A stretch of 64,000 bases of DNA from Anaerolineaceae bacterium (GTDB taxonomy: Bacteria; Chloroflexota; Anaerolineae; Anaerolineales; Anaerolineaceae): positions 206,078 to 270,077 of the forward strand of contig JAENYZ010000002.1 in assembly GCA_016841525.1 (NCBI GenBank). The letters run 5' to 3'. The translations under genes and the position numbers were made by a program. This document shows, one piece after another, positions 16,209 through 26,061 of the stretch. How positions within the stretch are numbered: the first letter of the stretch is position 1; every line of letters begins with the position of its first letter. The notes under the pieces are model-generated. The model was not told where the DNA came from, did no database searches, and saw only the letters and a program-made list of their open reading frames with translations.

Positions 16209-16694
16209 ATGCCAATAATTGAAGTAATATCTCACCCTGAAGTTAAGGTGGTTGGGTTGAAGTATCATGGAAAAAACCAGGCCGGGGAGATCCCGAAGCT
16301 CTGGCAGGAAATTGATCAATACTGGGATAAGATCCAATCTTTGGATGAGGCTGCCCATGCCGGTTATGGGATTAGCATGATGGATGAGGATTTTGAGAAG
16401 GCCATGGTTTTTGATTACATTGCCGGGTTCCCAGTTTTAGATGAAGAAGCACAACAACCTGAAGATTTGGACGCTTTCACCATCCCCGCCGGTGAATATG
16501 CGGTGATCACCGTACCAAACCTTGAAAGCATCATGCAGGCTTATGATGCCGTCTATCGCTGGGTATCCCAATCCGACGAATATGACCTGGACCTTTCAAA
16601 AGGAAATTTCAATTTTGAATTGTACGGGGAGGAATTTATGCCCAATGAGGGTTCGGAAAAATTTTATATTTACGTTCCTATCAGAGAAAAATAG
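16209..16694 (+). CDS. GyrI-like small-molecule-binding domain protein (first of two)
   Basis: 161 aa, stand-alone GyrI-like (AraC effector-binding / SOUL-type) domain with no DNA-binding region. The fold is recognisable from the spacing of the two beta-alpha-beta-beta halves and the closing EKFYIYVPI strand. Such proteins bind, and in a few studied cases hydrolyse, drug-like molecules. GAAAGGAG lies just before ATG 16209. The next gene, 9 nt downstream, is a second, diverged copy of the same fold, so the two form an operon. Ligand unknown. Confidence 0.8.
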   Translation: MPIIEVISHPEVKVVGLKYHGKNQAGEIPKLWQEIDQYWDKIQSLDEAAHAGYGISMMDEDFEKAMVFDYIAGFPVLDEEAQQPEDLDAFTIPAGEYAVITVPNLESIMQAYDAVYRWVSQSDEYDLDLSKGNFNFELYGEEFMPNEGSEKFYIYVPIREK

Positions 16695-16703
16695 GAAACT
16701 CAA

Positions 16704-17159
16704 ATGGAACCCCAAATTATCTACAAACCTGCCTTCACAGTCATTGGCATTCCTTATGTGGGCGAGAACCTGGAAAGGGACATGGATGCCTTGTGGGCTC
16801 AGCTTGCAAAACGATATGCCGAGCTGCCCCATGCAGACCCGGACCAGGGGTTTGGGGTCCACAAATTTTCAGATGATGGCCGCAGCTACCTGGCGGGTTT
16901 TGCGGCACATCGCGATGGCACATTACCCCCAGGGATGGTCGAGCAGTGGATTTGTGAGAACGCCTATGCTGTTTTCATTCACAGGGGGTCTTTGGCGAGT
17001 TTGGCGGAAACAATGACGCGAATCTTTGATAGGTGGCTGCCCGGTTCAGGTTACCAGCTTGCCGAGGATTATTTTTTTGAATGCTATGATGACCGCTTTA
17101 ATCCAGGATCGCCAGATTCGGTGTTGTTTGTTTATGTGCCGGTGAGAGAAATAAATTGA
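16704..17159 (+). CDS. GyrI-like small-molecule-binding domain protein (second of two)
   Basis: 151 aa, the same fold as the preceding gene but low identity to it; it closes with the VLFVYVPVRE strand. AGGAAA precedes ATG 16704. It is translationally close to its partner (9 nt) and convergent with the WYL regulator gene, which suggests a ligand-sensing or detoxifying role in the same locus. No catalytic residue is certain. Confidence 0.78.
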   Translation: MEPQIIYKPAFTVIGIPYVGENLERDMDALWAQLAKRYAELPHADPDQGFGVHKFSDDGRSYLAGFAAHRDGTLPPGMVEQWICENAYAVFIHRGSLASLAETMTRIFDRWLPGSGYQLAEDYFFECYDDRFNPGSPDSVLFVYVPVREIN

Positions 17160-18812: not shown

Positions 18813-18856
18813 AAAAGAGCTGCTGTCTATCATTTATAGCAGCAGCTCTTTTATTA
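18813..18856 (+). terminator. strong intrinsic terminator after the YggT gene
   Basis: A 13-bp perfect stem, AAAAGAGCTGCTG (18813-18825) with CAGCAGCTCTTTT (18840-18852), followed by ATTA. It separates this gene from the histidine operon promoter. Confidence 0.92.
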
Positions 18857-18927
18857 CGAGATGGATTGACATCAACCGATCATTTCCAGTTTGAGTTTGA
18901 TCAAATCAGGCTGGGCTGTACAATATC

Positions 18928-18956
18928 TTGACAATCTTCGTTCTAAAATCTATAAT
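18928..18956 (+). promoter_or_regulatory. histidine operon promoter
   Basis: TTGACA (18928-18933), exactly 17 nt, TATAAT (18951-18956): a full-consensus sigma-70 type promoter. The expected start point is about 18962-18964, only 3-5 nt before the leader-peptide ATG at 18967. Confidence 0.9.
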
Positions 18957-18966
18957 CATCAACACT

Positions 18967-19044
18967 ATGACCGCAAACGCACGAAACCATCACCATCATA
19001 CTAATTTTAATCCCCTCACGAGCGAGGATTGGTCGTTTGTTTAA
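18967..19044 (+). CDS. hisL: his operon leader peptide (first attenuator)
   Basis: 25 codons, ATG 18967 to TAA 19044, with four consecutive His codons (CAT CAC CAT CAT) at 18988-18999, codons 8-11. It lies between a consensus promoter and an intrinsic terminator directly upstream of hisD, the arrangement of classical histidine attenuators. There is no room for a Shine-Dalgarno site if transcription starts 7 nt after the -10 box, so translation is probably leaderless. Confidence 0.85.
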   Translation: MTANARNHHHHTNFNPLTSEDWSFV

Positions 19045-19106
19045 ACCTTAACAAGCACGAAAAAGACCACCTGAAAATTATCCCGCTCACCGGGATTTTT
19101 TATTTT
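19009..19106 (+). promoter_or_regulatory. histidine attenuator: alternative hairpins and terminator before hisD
   Basis: The terminator is ATCCCG (19080-19085), loop CTCAC, CGGGAT (19091-19096), then T6. Alternative pairing: GAGCGAGGAT (19020-19029) pairs with ATCCCGCTC (19080-19088) with one bulged A, which would destroy the terminator. A third hairpin, AATCCCCTC (19009-19017) with GAGGATT (19024-19030), would lock up the antiterminator strand. A ribosome stalled on the His codons ends near 19012-19015 and would block that lock. This is exactly the logic of His-starvation antitermination. Confidence 0.82.
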
Positions 19107-19117
19107 AAAGGAGCAAA

Positions 19118-20446
19118 ATGATGCTAAAAATTTATACTTCTGAAGAAGCCCAAAATACCATATTGAAGCGCGTACCATTGGATGATATGCCAGTTTCTTC
19201 CCGGATTCTGGAGAGCATTAAGCAATTATTTGGTGCACCTCTGACCCCTGATGAAGCTGTCAGGCAGATACTAAGAGAAATACGTTCAGATGGGGATGAT
19301 GCGCTAAGGCGCTGGTCCAGATTGTTAGATGGCCTGGATAAAGCGGATTTCCGTGTACCGCTGAGTGAGATTCGTGCCGCTGAGGGAAAAATTTCAGATG
19401 AAACAACACAGGCTTTGACCGAGTCCATTGAACGCATTCGCCGGTTTTATTCTCAGCAGCCCCTTTCATCATGGTCATTCCAGGAAGGGGCGGGTTCTCT
19501 GGGTCAGCTTGTCAGACCAATCAGGCGGGTGGGTATCTACGTGCCGGGTGGAACAGCACCTTTGCCTTCTTCCGTTTTGATGTCCGCGGTGCCAGCCCAG
19601 GCAGCCGGCGTCAAAGAAATTGTCCTGGTTGTCCCTCCAGAAAAAGGAACGGGGAAAATTGCACCTGTCATTCTGGCGGCAGCGGATCTTTTAGGCATTG
19701 AAGAAATTTACACACTGGGCGGTGCGCAGGCAATTGGCGCGCTTGCTTATGGGACTCAAAATATTCGACCGGTTGACAAGATTTTTGGCCCTGGCAATCT
19801 ATTTGTAACCCTTGCAAAACGCCAGGTTTTTGGGACAGTAGGGATTGACGGTCTTGCCGGGCCAACTGAAACAATGGTGATCGCTGATGAAACTGCCAAT
19901 CCTGATTGGGTCGCTGCAGACCTATTAGCCCAGGCGGAGCATGATGTTTTGGCAACTGCGATTCTGCTGACTTCCTCAGCCAATATTACCAAAGCTGTTC
20001 AAAAAGCTGTGGCTAAACAGCTTTCAAGCTTACCCCGAGCGGAAATTATTACGCAGTCCCTGGATGCCAATTCCGGGATCGTGATCACAGAGAATTTGGA
20101 TGAATCTATTCGCCTGGCAAACAATTATGCTCCCGAACACCTTTGTCTTTCAATTGGCAAACCTTTTGATGCTGTTGAAAGCATTAATGCTACGGGCGGT
20201 ATATTTGTAGGAGAATACTCTTGCGAGGTTTTGGGCGATTATGTCGCAGGACCCAGCCACGTTATGCCCACCAGCGGAACGGCTCGTTTTGCATCACCTG
20301 TTAATCTTTTGGATTTTGTGCACCTGGTCAGCCTGGTTGCCCTTGATAAAAAAACGGCATCTCAAATAAGCAATTCTGCAGCAGTTCTTGCCCGTGCTGA
20401 AAACCTGGAAGCCCATGCCCGCGCGGCAGATCTACGGAGAGGGTGA
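19118..20446 (+). CDS. hisD: histidinol dehydrogenase
   Basis: 442 aa zinc- and NAD-dependent enzyme that oxidises histidinol to histidine in the last two steps. Recognisable blocks: GPGNLFVTLAKRQVFG, GIDGLAGPTE, LLAQAEHD, NNYAPEHL and the C-terminal GDYVAGPSHVMPTSG. Two ATGs stand in tandem (19118, 19121) behind AAAGGAG. First gene of the operon, placed behind the attenuator. A 221-bp gap to hisG contains a second attenuator. Confidence 0.97.
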   Translation: MMLKIYTSEEAQNTILKRVPLDDMPVSSRILESIKQLFGAPLTPDEAVRQILREIRSDGDDALRRWSRLLDGLDKADFRVPLSEIRAAEGKISDETTQALTESIERIRRFYSQQPLSSWSFQEGAGSLGQLVRPIRRVGIYVPGGTAPLPSSVLMSAVPAQAAGVKEIVLVVPPEKGTGKIAPVILAAADLLGIEEIYTLGGAQAIGALAYGTQNIRPVDKIFGPGNLFVTLAKRQVFGTVGIDGLAGPTETMVIADETANPDWVAADLLAQAEHDVLATAILLTSSANITKAVQKAVAKQLSSLPRAEIITQSLDANSGIVITENLDESIRLANNYAPEHLCLSIGKPFDAVESINATGGIFVGEYSCEVLGDYVAGPSHVMPTSGTARFASPVNLLDFVHLVSLVALDKKTASQISNSAAVLARAENLEAHARAADLRRG

Positions 20447-20513
20447 TAAATAAATGGCAGGAACACTATACAAGTATTTGAGTTCAGGCTTTATATTCGA
20501 TAAGCTTAAGATC

Positions 20514-20570
20514 ATGAAAACAAAAATTCAATCCATCCATCATATGCATGCTCATTCAGCCAATATCTGA
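20514..20570 (+). CDS. second his leader peptide, internal to the operon
   Basis: 18 codons plus TGA. Codons 9, 10, 12 and 14 are His (HHMHAH), so four of six consecutive residues are His. It lies between hisD and hisG and is followed by its own terminator and competing hairpin. The sequence is unrelated to the first leader apart from the His run. No clear ribosome site: TTAAGATC is the only purine-rich stretch before the ATG. Confidence 0.8.
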   Translation: MKTKIQSIHHMHAHSANI

Positions 20571-20655
20571 GGATATCGGTCCGGTTTGCTTTAAGAAAGT
20601 GGATTAAGTAGTAGAAATCACAAAAGCGCTTCAGACCGGAAGCGCTTTTTTATTA
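20560..20655 (+). promoter_or_regulatory. internal histidine attenuator before hisG
   Basis: Terminator: AAAAGCGCTTC (20622-20632), loop, GAAGCGCTTTT (20639-20649) with further Ts; an 11-bp stem. Competing antiterminator: CCGGTTTG (20581-20588) pairs with CAGACCGG (20632-20639), one G-U, extended by CTTT with AAAG. A first hairpin, CCAATATC-tgag-GATATCGG (20560-20579), spans the leader stop codon. A ribosome reaching the stop would cover 20581 onward and favour the terminator; one stalled on the His codons would leave it free. Confidence 0.78.
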
Positions 20656-20667
20656 TGAGGAGAATTT

Positions 20668-21693
20668 ATGTCTTATATTAATGGAAAAGATCGTAAAGTT
20701 AGAATTGCCCTCCCGAGCAAAGGACGATTGTCGGAAGACAGCCTGAAATTGATGGAGGAATCAGGTTTGGCTGTGAAGAAAACCAATGAGAGACAATACA
20801 TGGCAAGGATCCCTGCAATGCCGGAGGTGGAAGTCCTCTTTCAAAGAGTGGCAGATATTGCGCTCAGCGTCAGAGATGGCATTGTTGACTTTGGTTTTAC
20901 CGGCCTGGATGTTGTCAGCGAAACCCAGAATGAATCAAAGGATATTTTGGTGATGCTGGAAAAATTAGGCTTTGGCAGCTGTAAACTATGTGCCATTGTG
21001 CCCGAGACGTCTGAATCTGTATCAGAAATGAAGGATGTGATGGCGCTGGTGCCAGTAAAAAAAGAAAGCCTCAGAGTGGCGACAAAATTCCCCAACCTGA
21101 CAAGGCGATTTTTTGAAGCGCACAATATCTTCAACGTGGACTACATCCAGGCAGAAGGCGCCTTAGAAATTGCCCCGCTTATCGGTTATGCAGATATGAT
21201 CACTGATTTGGTATCCTCCGGCCTGACTTTGCGAGACAATCGGCTTAAAGTTCTGGATGACGGTTTGATCCTTGACTCTCAGGCATGCCTGATTGCTAAT
21301 CGCAGCAACCTGGTTACTTCCCCCCGGGTGATGGAAGTAGCACGCAGGCTGTTAGAATTTATCGTCGCATATTTACGGGCGCAAAACAATGTCACTGTAT
21401 TTGCGAACATTCGCGGTGACTCTCCAGAGGCAGTGGCTGAATTAGTCCTTGGGAAAAAGGTGATACGCGGCTTGCAAGGGCCAACAATTTCAAGGGTAAT
21501 CACCCACCAGGGTGAAAATTGGTTTGCTGTCAACCTGGTCATTCAGAAATCTCAGCTGGCGGATGCGATTATTGAACTGCGTTCAATTGGCGGCAGTGGA
21601 GTTGTTGTCACACCGGTTAATTTTATTTTTGAAGAAGAACCTGAAGCATACACCAGGTTGCTGGCAGAATTGAAGGTGGATGATGCGCGATAA
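20668..21693 (+). CDS. hisG: ATP phosphoribosyltransferase, long form
   Basis: 341 aa enzyme for the first step, condensing ATP with PRPP; normally feedback-inhibited by histidine. The catalytic domain has ALPSKGRLSEDS near the N-terminus and the PRPP-binding segment MITDLVSSG. The last 75 residues or so are the ACT-like regulatory domain of the HisG_L type, so no HisZ partner is needed and none is seen. GAGGAG precedes ATG 20668. It sits directly behind the second attenuator. Confidence 0.95.
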   Translation: MSYINGKDRKVRIALPSKGRLSEDSLKLMEESGLAVKKTNERQYMARIPAMPEVEVLFQRVADIALSVRDGIVDFGFTGLDVVSETQNESKDILVMLEKLGFGSCKLCAIVPETSESVSEMKDVMALVPVKKESLRVATKFPNLTRRFFEAHNIFNVDYIQAEGALEIAPLIGYADMITDLVSSGLTLRDNRLKVLDDGLILDSQACLIANRSNLVTSPRVMEVARRLLEFIVAYLRAQNNVTVFANIRGDSPEAVAELVLGKKVIRGLQGPTISRVITHQGENWFAVNLVIQKSQLADAIIELRSIGGSGVVVTPVNFIFEEEPEAYTRLLAELKVDDAR

Positions 21694-22771
21694 GTATATC
21701 AGGGATCACATTATGTCTATCAAGCCCTATGAACCCATTGTTCCCCTGGATGTGCTTTCAGACCAGTTGGGAATTCCCATTGGTGAATTGATAAAATTAG
21801 ATGCCAACGAGAACCCATACGGTATGCCGCCAGCATCCATCCGGCGTTTAGCAGATCTATCCTTTGGACACATCTACCCCGACCCTGAAAGCCGATATTT
21901 AAGGCAGAGTTTATCAGCCTATTCAGGGGTACCTTATGAAAACATCCTGGTTGGCGCCGGGGCAGATGAATTGATCGATTTAATTATGCGATTGACCATG
22001 GCGCCCGGGGATAAAATGATCAATTGCCCGCCTACCTTTGGTTTTTACGATGCAGATGCCCAGGTGAATAATCTTGAAATCCTTGAAGTGCGCCGGAAGT
22101 CTGACTTTTCATTGGATCTCCCGGGGATAGAAAAGGCAGTTTCAGAGGGTGGAAAATTGATCTTCCTTGCCAACCCTAATAACCCGGATGGGGGGGTAAT
22201 AAATCCCGAGGACCTGGTGAAGATCTTATCGCTTCCCATACTGGTTGTGCTTGATGAGGCTTATATAGAATTTGCCAGCCCTTATCAAAGTCTTGCTCCT
22301 GAAGTGCTGAATAGGGACAACCTGGTTGTCTTGCGAACGTTCAGTAAATGGGGAGGTCTGGCAGGGCTTCGACTGGGGTATGGTTTTTTCCCGCTGCCAC
22401 TTGCGATTGCAATTATGAAAATCAAACAACCCTACAATGTTTCTGTGGCTGCCGCCGAGGCAGGCTTGGGGGTGCTTGAGGATCGTCTTATTGTGAATAA
22501 ACGCTTGGGGCTGATTATTTGGGAAAGAGAAAAATTGATGGCTGGGCTGAATCAACTGGATTACTTAGTTCCATATCCATCCCGGGCGAATTTTATTTTG
22601 TGTAAAGTGTTGGAGGGCAGCGCCAGAAAGCTTAAAGAGGATCTCACCCAACGAGGGATATTAATTCGGTATTTCAACAAACCCGGTCTTGAGGACCATG
22701 TGCGTTTCAGCATTGGCAAACCGGAAGATACAGAGCGGTTGTTAGCCGCATTGGAGGTGCTTCGACCATGA
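21683..22771 (+). CDS. hisC: histidinol-phosphate aminotransferase
   Basis: 362 aa PLP enzyme converting imidazole-acetol phosphate to histidinol phosphate. The PLP lysine is in TFSKWGGLAGLR; the NPNNPDGG motif is present. ATG 21680, 21683 and 21713 are all possible. I favour 21683 because GAAGG stands 6 nt upstream and the IRDHIMSIKPYEP segment matches the normal family N-terminus. The gene overlaps hisG by 11 nt and its stop overlaps the hisB start (ATGA). Confidence 0.95.
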   Translation: MRDKYIRDHIMSIKPYEPIVPLDVLSDQLGIPIGELIKLDANENPYGMPPASIRRLADLSFGHIYPDPESRYLRQSLSAYSGVPYENILVGAGADELIDLIMRLTMAPGDKMINCPPTFGFYDADAQVNNLEILEVRRKSDFSLDLPGIEKAVSEGGKLIFLANPNNPDGGVINPEDLVKILSLPILVVLDEAYIEFASPYQSLAPEVLNRDNLVVLRTFSKWGGLAGLRLGYGFFPLPLAIAIMKIKQPYNVSVAAAEAGLGVLEDRLIVNKRLGLIIWEREKLMAGLNQLDYLVPYPSRANFILCKVLEGSARKLKEDLTQRGILIRYFNKPGLEDHVRFSIGKPEDTERLLAALEVLRP

Positions 22772-23355
22772 GAAAAGCGATTGTAGAAAGAAAAACAAAC
22801 GAGACAGAGATCAAACTTAAATTGAACCTTGATGGTTCCGGTAAGCATATCATTGATACAGGCATTCCCTTCTTTGATCATATGCTGACCCAGGTCGCTG
22901 TCCATGGTTTATTTGATTTGGAAGTTGAGGCAAAGGGCGACCTCGCTGTTGATCCCCATCACACGATTGAAGATGTGGCATTAACACTGGGTGAGGGATT
23001 TGCGCAAGCCCTGGCTGGGAAAAAGGGCATCGAAAGGATGGGTGAGGCGCTGGTGTCCATGGATGAGTCCTTATGCCGGGTGGTTATCGACTTTTCCGGA
23101 AGGCCTTACCTGGTTTACCAGGCGGATTGGCAGGACCCGATGGTAGCAGGGATCCCGGTGACATTGATCGAGCATTTTTTCTATTCCTTTAGTATGATGG
23201 CTAAAGCCACTATGCACGTGGCGGTGCTGTATGGACGGGATAATCATCACAAGACAGAAGGGATGTTTAAGGCTTTTTCCCGCGCTTTAAAAAGTGCTGC
23301 CGCTATGGACCCTCGCAGAGAAGGTCAAATCCCCAGCTCGAAAGGCGTCTTATGA
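22768..23355 (+). CDS. hisB: imidazoleglycerol-phosphate dehydratase
   Basis: 195 aa, monofunctional dehydratase with no fused N-terminal phosphatase. The metal-binding motifs FFDHM, HHTIEDVA and DNHHKTE(GMFKA) are all intact. Its ATG overlaps the hisC stop, and its own stop overlaps the hisH start, so the three are translationally coupled. Because it lacks the HAD phosphatase half found in E. coli HisB, histidinol-phosphate phosphatase must be supplied by another gene. Confidence 0.97.
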   Translation: MRKAIVERKTNETEIKLKLNLDGSGKHIIDTGIPFFDHMLTQVAVHGLFDLEVEAKGDLAVDPHHTIEDVALTLGEGFAQALAGKKGIERMGEALVSMDESLCRVVIDFSGRPYLVYQADWQDPMVAGIPVTLIEHFFYSFSMMAKATMHVAVLYGRDNHHKTEGMFKAFSRALKSAAAMDPRREGQIPSSKGVL

Positions 23356-23963
23356 GAGTCGCGTTGATCGATTACGGCATTGGAAATTTGCGTTCCGTCA
23401 ATAAAGCCCTTGAGCATGTGGGTGCGGTGGTGGTTCAAACGGCTGATCCCGAAGAAATTCTAAAGGCTGAAAAAGTCATTCTCCCAGGCGTTGGTGCCTT
23501 CAAAGATGGCATGAAAGGTTTGCAAGCGCGTGGTTTAATCTCGACCATTGATGAAATCGTCAAACGCCAGACTCCCCTGCTCGGGATTTGTTTGGGAATG
23601 CAGTTGTTTTTTAGCCGCAGTTCAGAAATGGGCGAGACCCATGGTCTGGGTTATGTTGCTGGTGAAGTAAGAGAATTCTCCATGGACCACTTAAAAATCC
23701 CGCAGACCGGGTGGAATCAACTTCAAATGACTTCACCTTCGCCATTATTGCGTGGCGTTGATGATGGCACATTTGTTTATTTCAACCACAGTTATTACTG
23801 CGACCCTTCTGCCCCGTCGGTTTCTATTGCAAAAACGGACTATGGGATTTCATTCGCATCCGCCATCCAGGAAGAGTCAATTTACGGGGTGCAGTTCCAT
23901 CCTGAAAAGAGCCAGGATGCTGGTTTGATGATTTTAAGAAACTTTGTGGAGGTGTGCCAATGA
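23352..23963 (+). CDS. hisH: imidazole glycerol phosphate synthase, glutamine amidotransferase subunit
   Basis: 203 aa class I glutaminase that delivers ammonia to HisF. The catalytic Cys80 lies in GICLGMQ, and His183/Glu185 in FHPEKS; the triad is complete. ATGA overlap with hisB upstream and with hisA downstream. Confidence 0.97.
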   Translation: MRVALIDYGIGNLRSVNKALEHVGAVVVQTADPEEILKAEKVILPGVGAFKDGMKGLQARGLISTIDEIVKRQTPLLGICLGMQLFFSRSSEMGETHGLGYVAGEVREFSMDHLKIPQTGWNQLQMTSPSPLLRGVDDGTFVYFNHSYYCDPSAPSVSIAKTDYGISFASAIQEESIYGVQFHPEKSQDAGLMILRNFVEVCQ

Positions 23964-24688
23964 CACCTTTTACCGTTTACCCTGCGATTGACCTTAAAGA
24001 AGGTCGTGTTGTCCGGTTGGCGCAAGGGCAGCGGGATAAATCAAAAATTTTTGAAGTCCAGCCTTCGGAGGCAGCAGAGAAATGGATCGAACAGGGTGCC
24101 GATTGGCTGCATGTGGTCAATTTGGATGGTGCTTTTGGTGATGCGCTTCAACCCAGGCTCACGGCATTAGAAGAAATCCTGTCTGTCTCTATCGGCAGGG
24201 CGTCTGTTCAATACGGCGGTGGGCTGCGTTCAATGGATTTGATCAGGGAAATCCTATCCATGGGGGCGGCACGCGTGATCATCGGGACAGCAGGGGTGGA
24301 AAGCCCGGCTTTGATGATTGAGGCTTTAGAGACCTTTGGTCCAAACCGCATCGTTCTCGGCATTGACGCTCGAGATGGATTGGTTCGGGTAAGCGGCTGG
24401 GAGAAAAAAACCAGTGTGACGCCTATTGATTTAGCGAACCGTTATATTGAATACGGATTGCGAACCATCATTTTCACAAATATCAAACGCGATGGCATGC
24501 AGTCCGGCGTGGATATCTCTTCCACCAGCGCGCTTTCGAATGGATTAGGACTGGCGGTGATCGCCAGCGGGGGTGTGGGTACCCTTGAGGATATCCGCCA
24601 GGTGAAAGCTGCCGGCTTGCCCGGGGTTGTGGTAGGAAAAGCCCTGTATGAAAAGAAATTCACATTATCGGAGGCGATTAAATGTTAG
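23960..24688 (+). CDS. hisA: ProFAR isomerase (phosphoribosylformimino-5-aminoimidazole carboxamide ribotide isomerase)
   Basis: 242 aa (beta/alpha)8 barrel. The first catalytic Asp is in [14 protein letters not shown] and the phosphate-binding ends are GGGLRS and the VVGKALYE strand. GTG 23954 is in frame, but GGAGGTG at 23948-23954 positions the ribosome on ATG 23960, which overlaps the hisH stop as ATGA. The gene overlaps hisF by 7 nt. Confidence 0.96.
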
Positions 24689-25446
24689 CAAAACGAATTA
24701 TCCCCTGCCTGGACATAAAAGATGGCAGGGTCGTCAAGGGAATCAATTTCATCAACCTGAGGGATGCCGGCGACCCTGTGGCGCAGGCGAAAATCTACAA
24801 CGATGCCGGGGCTGATGAACTGGTCTTCCTGGATATTTCAGCCAGTCTTGAAGGGCGAAAAACAATGGCTGAAGTGGTCACAGCCGTTGCAGACCAGGTT
24901 TTTATGCCCCTCACCGTTGGCGGGGGGATCAAATCTGTAGAAGATATGCATCGTTTGCTCTCTGCAGGCGCGGACAAGATCAGCATTAACACTGCGGCTG
25001 TGAATGACCCGTCTCTGATCACCCAGGGTGCCAAACGTTTTGGCAGTCAATGCATCATTATCGCTGTGGATGCACGCAAAACGGAGGAAGACCGCTGGGA
25101 AGTGGTGACTTACGGCGGCAGGAAGTCCACCGGGCTGGATGCCATGGAATGGGTCAAAAAAGCCATTTCCCTCGGTGCAGGTGAGGTGCTGCTGACCAGT
25201 ATGGATGCAGATGGCACCCTTTCAGGTTACGATCTTGAGCTGACTCGCCGAGTGGCGGAGTCGGTGAAGGTTCCGATCATTGCCAGCGGGGGGGCGGGCA
25301 GCATGAAGGATTTTGCGGATGTTCTGACAATTGGCAAAGCCGATGCCGCCCTGGCAGCTTCGCTTTTCCATGACAACGAGCTCACCATCCCAGATTTGAA
25401 AGTCTATTTAGCGGAAAGAAATATCCCTGTCAGGATCACAAAATGA
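24682..25446 (+). CDS. hisF: imidazole glycerol phosphate synthase, cyclase subunit
   Basis: 254 aa barrel, partner of HisH. It joins ammonia and PRFAR to give IGP plus AICAR. Catalytic Asp residues are seen in [12 protein letters not shown] and IIAVDARK. Strongly similar in layout to HisA, as expected from their common origin. Overlaps hisA by 7 nt and hisI by 4 nt. Confidence 0.97.
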
Positions 25447-25787
25447 AACCAATCAACCAGGAAAACCCAAAAATCACATATAATTCCCAGGGGCTTGTGC
25501 CGGCGATCGTTCAGAATGCTGCCACAAAAAAAGTGCTGATGATGGCATGGATGAACCAGGAAGCATTGCAATTAACCCAGTCTACGGGACAGGCGCATTT
25601 CTGGAGTCGAAGCCGCGAAGCCTTATGGCGCAAAGGAGCGACATCCGGGAACATACTTAACGTGAAGCAGATTTTTATTGATTGTGACGGCGATACCCTG
25701 CTACTGATGGTTGATCCTGCCGGACCTGCCTGCCATACCGGGAATGAAAGCTGTTTTTATCGATCGATGGAGGACGAAAATGTTTGA
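25443..25787 (+). CDS. hisI: phosphoribosyl-AMP cyclohydrolase
   Basis: 114 aa, stand-alone cyclohydrolase (step 3). The zinc/magnesium site residues are present: DCDGD, CHTG and the SCFYR end. The WRKGATSG motif is intact. It is not fused to HisE, which follows as a separate overlapping gene. Confidence 0.96.
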
Positions 25788-26061
25788 TGAATTATTCCAG
25801 ATCATTGAAGACCGGAAGAAGGATAAACCTGCCGGCTCTTATACCGCACAGCTGATGGACACCGGTGAAAACCTGATCCTGAGGAAAATTGGCGAAGAAA
25901 CGCTGGAAGTAATTTTTGCAGCAAAGGATGAGGGGCAGCAAAGATTGATCGAAGAATCGGCTGATTTGATCTATCATCTGTGGGTTTTATTGTCTTATAA
26001 AGGTGTTAGCATTGAACAGGTAAAAAAGGAACTTGCCTCCCGCCATAAGAGGGATCAATGA
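25780..26061 (+). CDS. hisE: phosphoribosyl-ATP diphosphohydrolase
   Basis: 93 aa, MazG-like all-alpha pyrophosphatase (step 2). Motif [14 protein letters not shown] and ESADLIYHL supply the acidic metal ligands. Start ATG 25780 lies inside the hisI end, with GGAGGAC upstream; a longer frame from 25711 merely reads hisI out of phase. The stop overlaps the ATG of the next gene (ATGA). Confidence 0.95.

Follow-up and report, generated by a model that had tools for sequence, protein, structure and literature searches.

We find that the histidine operon of the window, by which we mean the whole 64,000-nucleotide stretch of DNA analysed, holds the parts of two histidine attenuators, attenuator 1 upstream of hisD and attenuator 2 between hisD and hisG. 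On balance, we favour the reading in which 20514-20656 is a ribosome-mediated His attenuator that hisG inherited, the operon having formed by the placing of a hisD unit, complete with promoter and His attenuator, upstream of an attenuated hisGCBHAFIE. The parts themselves, their homology, the covariation in kin and the unusual gene order were computed; from these we infer the docking event, the translation of leader 2, termination and regulation in vivo.

The operon and the gap between hisD and hisG

The window belongs to a genome of 3.2 Mb in 9 contigs. Its operon runs from hisD across a gap of 221 nt to hisG, which begins at 20668, and on through hisC, B, H, A, F, I and E (Table 1); each of these nine genes passed a curated NCBIfam cut-off. 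The hisI gene and the listed hisE frame (TTG 25711) overlap in the window (25443-26061), and the true hisE start probably lies further in. Upstream of the operon, 16209-16694 and 16704-17159 encode adjacent small proteins that are similar to one another (cross-matches at 25-29% identity) and that are also paired in G013, a genome of the same genus.

Table 1 Features of the histidine operon and its two attenuators, in window positions
Feature	Position	Strand	Description and basis
P1 promoter TTGACA-17-TATAAT	18928..18956	+	12/12 consensus positions; scores 22.4 on the profile, a level reached by 0.06% of 1728 background stretches
Leader 1, MTANARNHHHHTNFNPLTSEDWSFV and stop	18967..19044	+	ATG 10 nt past the -10 box, without Shine-Dalgarno
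Antiterminator 1, 5' arm	19020..19029	+	pairs with 19080-19088; duplex -14.0 kcal/mol
Terminator 1	19080..19096	+	6 pairs, T tract after
hisD, histidinol dehydrogenase	19118..20446	+	NCBIfam TIGR00069, 500 bits
Possible extended leader 2, 38 codons	20454..20570	+	start 8 nt past the hisD stop; GGAGAGGG at 20436-20443
P2 candidate TTGAGT-17-TAAGCT, weak	20478..20506	+	7 nt before ATG 20514; score 6.3, 7% of 1728 background stretches as good
Leader 2, MKTKIQSIHHMHAHSANI and stop	20514..20570	+	ORF; shuffles; profile matches to kin
Former leader 2 end, in frame past TGA	20571..20594	+	GYRSGLL and stop, cf. QRFRSGVL and stop in G003
Antiterminator 2, 5' arm	20580..20588	+	pairs with 20632-20640, 9 bp; duplex -14.3 kcal/mol; kin pairing
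Terminator 2	20622..20649	+	11 pairs, 6-nt loop, then TTATTATGAG; -14.9 kcal/mol
hisG, ATP phosphoribosyltransferase	20668..21693	+	NCBIfam TIGR00070
hisC, hisB, hisH, hisA, hisF, hisI, hisE	21680..26061	+	NCBIfam

Within the gap, the initial annotation had described a leader ORF with four His in six codons, an 11-bp terminator and an antiterminator formed by 20581-20588 with 20632-20639. All of these are present: the ORF occupies 20514-20570, the terminator 20622-20649, and the antiterminator, which includes one G-U pair, extends by one further pair to 20580/20640. By chance, a random His-rich ORF might simply lie beside an ordinary terminator, and four CAY codons in a row do occur with some frequency in the genome (45 pattern matches in 3.2 Mb, both strands, any frame). 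Dinucleotide shuffling of the 221-nt gap, repeated 20,000 times, produced a leader with 4 or more His in 7 codons in 12 cases and a terminator of 9 bp or more with a T tract in 6, and in no case the two in order, which argues against such a coincidence; similarly, 1160 tiles of 221 nt from both window strands gave 7 leaders, 2 terminators and a single tile with both, the hisD-hisG gap itself. With the homology to the hisG attenuators of kin set out below, the comparative data in effect refute chance as the explanation, and we give it next to no weight.

A search of 18850-20720 against Rfam for a His leader or T-box returned no such family at E values up to 5, and the whole window at gathering scores gave tRNA only; with no Rfam match, a T-box or other Rfam element was dropped as the identity of the attenuator.

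Most related hisG loci examined carry a His leader

Homologues of hisG were found in 54 of 121 relatives, 44 of 147 genomes of the family and 172 of 400 genomes of the order (overlapping sets). We fetched 90 hisG loci and kept 87, to which the partial locus of G079 does not belong, setting aside three divergent ones (L186, L187 and L188, from G139, G129 and G135). In these three, HisG is about 33% identical and no His leader was detected; the hisD of G139 has one. A leader, meaning an ORF that has 3 or more His in 7 codons and lies no more than 330 nt upstream of hisG, was present at 81 of the 87 Anaerolineales loci, and a leader together with a terminator at 78 (for example L005, L012 and L023); in this set of loci, hisG is thus as a rule preceded by a His leader. 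The loci in which no His leader was found are those of G013, G116, G101, G094, G407 and G385: in G116 a His ORF and terminator lie farther out, or the reading is broken by N, and in G385 the contig breaks off some 40 nt before the match.

Attenuator 2 falls within this group. When 18 related hisG attenuators, the window's not among them, were made into a profile (eight of its members being the best hisG matches in the order search, not chosen by tree), its best match was 20533-20652 at an E value of 7e-7, with the next row at 0.23 and leader 1 absent from the rows listed, while a 10-sequence profile found attenuator 2 at 3.6e-6 and its next match at 0.44. Leader 1, in turn, was matched best by the profile of the family's hisG attenuators (f1, 6e-4), with the f12 hisG profile at 0.019; the f12 hisD profile reached 0.021, and matched leader 1 of G013 only, and the f1 stand-alone hisD profile gave no match to leader 1. 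The profiles thus separate the two attenuators, bearing out the earlier view that attenuator 2 is not a copy of attenuator 1 and ruling out leader 2 as a copy of leader 1.

The pairing that defines the antiterminator is also seen to covary among kin. When matched arms were compared with re-dealt ones, 61 hisG loci scored -24.1 against -20.5 (0 of 2000 re-dealings as good), the 10 window-type sequences -23.3 against -20.0 (3 of 2000), and 11 hisD loci likewise gave 0 of 2000. At single loci, 50 of 72 were beaten by at most 10 of 200 shuffles, and the window's antiterminator, taken alone, is only mildly unusual (20 of 200 shuffles as good). In terminator 2, 7 of the 11 pairs show two-sided changes among the 10 window-type sequences. 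On these comparative grounds, attenuator 2 is the hisG attenuator inherited in the window's own lineage.

Leaders of kin are probably translated from leaderless mRNA

In 87 of 90 leaders (promoter score at least 8.5), the first in-frame ATG or GTG lies 6-11 nt past the -10 box, compared with 1 and 0 in the other frames; as leaders were selected for having a start, it is the narrow position that counts and not the mere presence of a start codon. Over equal 25-nt stretches, a Shine-Dalgarno duplex of -6 kcal/mol or stronger was present at 2 of 90 leader starts against 64 of 90 estimated starts of the genes downstream. Taken together, the narrow position and the rarity of Shine-Dalgarno sites suggest that in kin translation of the leader probably begins at the RNA end or only a few nt from it. 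The same scarcity applies to leader 2, before which no Shine-Dalgarno was found, as for the apparently leaderless leaders of kin. The spacing of the P2 candidate (7 nt) matches the geometry of kin, as does that of leader 1; P2 is too weak to tell.

Different histories of hisD and hisG, and three states in one genus

Among the matches listed, 129 genomes have both hisG and hisD, and in 94 of these the two are adjacent in the order hisG-hisD with a median gap of 25 nt. The order hisD-hisG was found in two, the window genome (225 nt between matched ends) and G013 (286 nt); in 3 the genes share a contig and strand and lie apart, and in 30 they lie on different contigs or strands. These counts rest on the 150 matches listed for each gene.

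A His leader of its own precedes hisD in 17 genomes (for example L066, L070, L189, L226 and L231) in which hisD stands apart from hisG or no hisG was found, a count that leaves out the window, G013 and two artefacts, G096 and G097, whose "leaders" lie inside the preceding gene. The hisDs with their own His leader span several genera and two families. In one set of 20 such hisDs, 7 have a leader and 13 do not, and a His leader was also not found before further such hisDs, including those of G046, G098, G068, G129, G135, G178 and G189.

Phylogenetic analysis placed the hisG of the window genome (G000), G013 and G003 in a 13-row clade (100/95) with seven genomes of other families and three others of the window's family; forcing them into the main family clade gave a borderline AU p of 0.04. 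For hisC and hisB combined, the genus lies outside the main family clade, and forcing it inside was not rejected (p 0.16). Placing the hisD of G000 and G013 with the hisDs of the hosts of their hisG kin was rejected (AU p 7e-5, 48 rows), and with family f12 added (68 rows) the two became sister to the stand-alone hisDs of G382, G396 and G385 (99/90), before which no His leader was found. The groups for the AU tests were chosen after seeing the trees; proteins that were too short were left out, and 80 distant hisDs from a contig scan were not used. The idea that the window's hisD is the operonic hisD of its own family was dropped once the f12 hisDs were in the tree and three of them came out as the sister group of the window pair; the view of leader 1 as native to a hisG since lost was given up at the same time. 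The usual hisG-hisD order, the existence of hisDs with their own leaders and the different kin of hisD and hisG suggest that two attenuated units were probably docked in tandem.

Within the genus, hisG was found in 3 of 16 genomes. The other genomes, several of which are over 95% complete, appear to lack histidine synthesis. G003 has hisG with a leader, MIKNTMCTTHHAHHPIPGQRFRSGVL (from a GTG start, or a shorter version from ATG), and a terminator, and no hisD was found in this genome, which is 75% complete. G013 shares with the window the upstream flank, which we take to encode a UvrA-like protein, two small paralogous proteins and a regulator, and the genes from hisD to hisE in order; the genes just before hisD differ. 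It keeps leader 1, of the same kind as the window's (MFKSFLGHHHHTNYNPSLSEVSLAV), and its hisD-hisG gap, by the same criteria, yielded no His leader and no terminator. Aligned to the window gap, that of G013 retains the T tract and ribosome-binding site and has lost the hairpin and His codons; none of 1000 shuffles aligned as well over the whole length, and 16 to 97 of 1000 did so when the last 35 nt were left out or when the leader part was aligned by itself. The window's terminator hairpin is still perfect where that of G013 is lost. The conservation of His codons and stems in relatives, on which the earlier proposal had been made to depend, is therefore seen before hisG at large and has broken down in G013, the sole other genome with the order hisD-hisG among the matches listed. 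We infer a single docking event before G000 and G013 parted, with later decay in G013. Attenuator 2 looks like a partly worn switch, which is the only one of one relative and has been lost by another.

How attenuator 2 might switch

In the model that we favour, once the hisD unit, with its promoter and His attenuator, had come to adjoin the upstream end of the attenuated hisGCBHAFIE, transcripts would pass both controls. A scan of the + strand between the hisD stop and leader 2 (20447-20513) found no terminator-like site, so that transcripts from P1 that read past attenuator 1 must cross attenuator 2 before reaching hisG. When charged tRNA-His is short, a ribosome would stall on CAT CAT ATG CAT GCT CAT, leaving 20580-20588 free to pair with 20632-20640, and transcription would continue; when it is ample, a ribosome at the stop would partly cover the 5' arm and the terminator would form. 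Thus hisD would be gated once, and hisG onward twice; the initial annotation had proposed that two attenuators in series would let hisD be read separately or would multiply the repression of hisG.

In folding calculations, the two structures are nearly equal in energy (-14.3 kcal/mol for the antiterminator against -14.9 for the terminator), and while a ribosome occupies the His codons the probability of the antiterminator is 0.86-0.96 until the 3' arm of the terminator has been transcribed. The stop of leader 2 lies about 9-10 nt short of the antiterminator arm at 20580, whereas the leader ORF encloses the arm in 9 of 9 window-type kin for which a terminator was called (one arm 1 nt past the stop). 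A ribosome is described as covering about 12 nt past its codon (PMC4833913). With cover of this extent at the TGA, about three nucleotides of the arm would be masked and the other six pairs form at 0.89-0.99; with no ribosome, six antiterminator pairs also form, at 0.84-0.94, as long as the terminator's 3' arm has yet to be transcribed. In full-length folds the terminator is preferred whatever the state, so the switch would have to depend on a kinetic argument. A protector hairpin at 20564-20577 was rejected as too weak (+1.1 kcal/mol alone, -4.0 extended; probability 0.0). With the TGA early and the arm mostly unmasked there, attenuator 2 probably exerts less control than its counterparts in kin.

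Alternative readings of the gap

The claim of a second, independent His attenuator within the operon is thus strengthened by homologous hisG attenuators across the order, the profile match, the covarying antiterminators and the decayed counterpart in G013, while the early stop and weak promoter leave room for a relic. On that account, attenuator 2 served a separate hisG unit, and its promoter and stop decayed after docking, leaving a weak constitutive terminator or an inactive sequence, with the decay further advanced in G013; the lack of a Shine-Dalgarno before leader 2 and the loss of attenuator 2 in G013 point the same way. It is hard to square with the persistence of four His codons, a perfect 11-bp stem and a T tract in the window while the G013 gap diverged almost past recognition, and we think it unlikely, if well worth keeping in mind. 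A different possibility is offered by the in-frame ATG at 20454, which has a Shine-Dalgarno and could serve as the start of leader 2 instead: its anti-Shine-Dalgarno duplex is -7.4 kcal/mol, against -8.3 for hisD and -8.6 for hisG. Tentatively, a leaderless attenuator may after docking have become an internal one coupled to translation: ribosomes finishing hisD may reinitiate at ATG 20454, read 38 codons through the former promoter region into HHMHAH and so set attenuator 2. The open frame upstream of leader 2 was dropped as evidence in its own right, as 30 of 77 leaders have at least 20 open upstream codons.

A further possibility is that the two units are merely adjacent, with hisG expressed mainly from P2 through a leaderless leader 2 and attenuator 2, and hisD from P1 through attenuator 1, so that the series hardly matters. 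The kin, with their leaders 6-11 nt from promoters in 87 of 90 cases, and the P2 candidate, at 7 nt, lend this some appeal. The initial annotation had raised the possibility of a promoter between 20446 and 20514, and a candidate does lie there, at 20478-20506; its strength is the difficulty, since it scores 6.3 against 10.1 for the G003 promoter and 22.4 for P1, a level that 7% of background stretches also reach. The scan also found no terminator that would part hisD from leader 2, and we regard expression as two neighbouring units as rather improbable.

Significance and relation to known systems

If it works, this would be a biosynthetic operon in which two leader-peptide attenuators for the same amino acid stand in series with a gene between them. 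Were leader 2 rewired to reinitiation, histidine would be sensed in two stages ahead of hisG, and the second of these would report on the translation of hisD as well. The locus would illustrate the building of an operon by the docking of whole regulated units, with three states in one genus: the hisG unit alone (G003), both attenuators (the window) and the second one lost (G013). Beyond it lies a set of apparently leaderless His attenuators across Anaerolineales, of which we found no description in the open literature. Lopatovskaya and colleagues have surveyed amino acid attenuation, and their work may touch the same ground. In the open-access literature that our search covered, we found neither His attenuators of Chloroflexota nor a his operon with two leader-peptide attenuators, in agreement with the earlier statement that no his operon with two leader peptides in series had been described.

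Several attenuators within one operon are known from the pyr operon of Bacillus subtilis, where a number of PyrR-controlled attenuators, some of them between genes, serve one pathway. The window resembles it in having several attenuators, some between genes, for a single biosynthetic pathway, and differs in that sensing in the pyr operon falls to an RNA-binding protein rather than to a ribosome translating a leader peptide. Closer in mechanism is the enterobacterial his operon, with its hisL leader-peptide attenuator (PMC3896937, PMC9413887); His attenuators have also been described in Firmicutes (PMC9413887). Like hisL, the window has a His-rich leader ORF, a terminator before the structural gene and a competing antiterminator; unlike hisL, which is one attenuator before the first gene, it has a second one inside the operon, and its leaders are without a Shine-Dalgarno. 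The internal promoters of the E. coli his operon are reported not to be subject to attenuation (PMC3896937).

Leader peptides translated from leaderless mRNA have a parallel in mycobacteria, where leaderless attenuator ORFs rich in Cys are described (Canestrari 2020, cited in PMC9031893) and further candidates are given in PMC4633059, although these concern another amino acid, other genes and another phylum, and are not in series as described in those two sources. For the series itself, a related case is the mgtCBR operon of Salmonella, whose tandem attenuators are called a singular example for different signals, ATP and proline (PMC3641672). Both systems have two short ORFs and attenuation in series on one transcript; whereas mgtCBR senses two signals within one 5' leader, the two leaders of the window are both His-rich, and a structural gene, hisD, stands between them.
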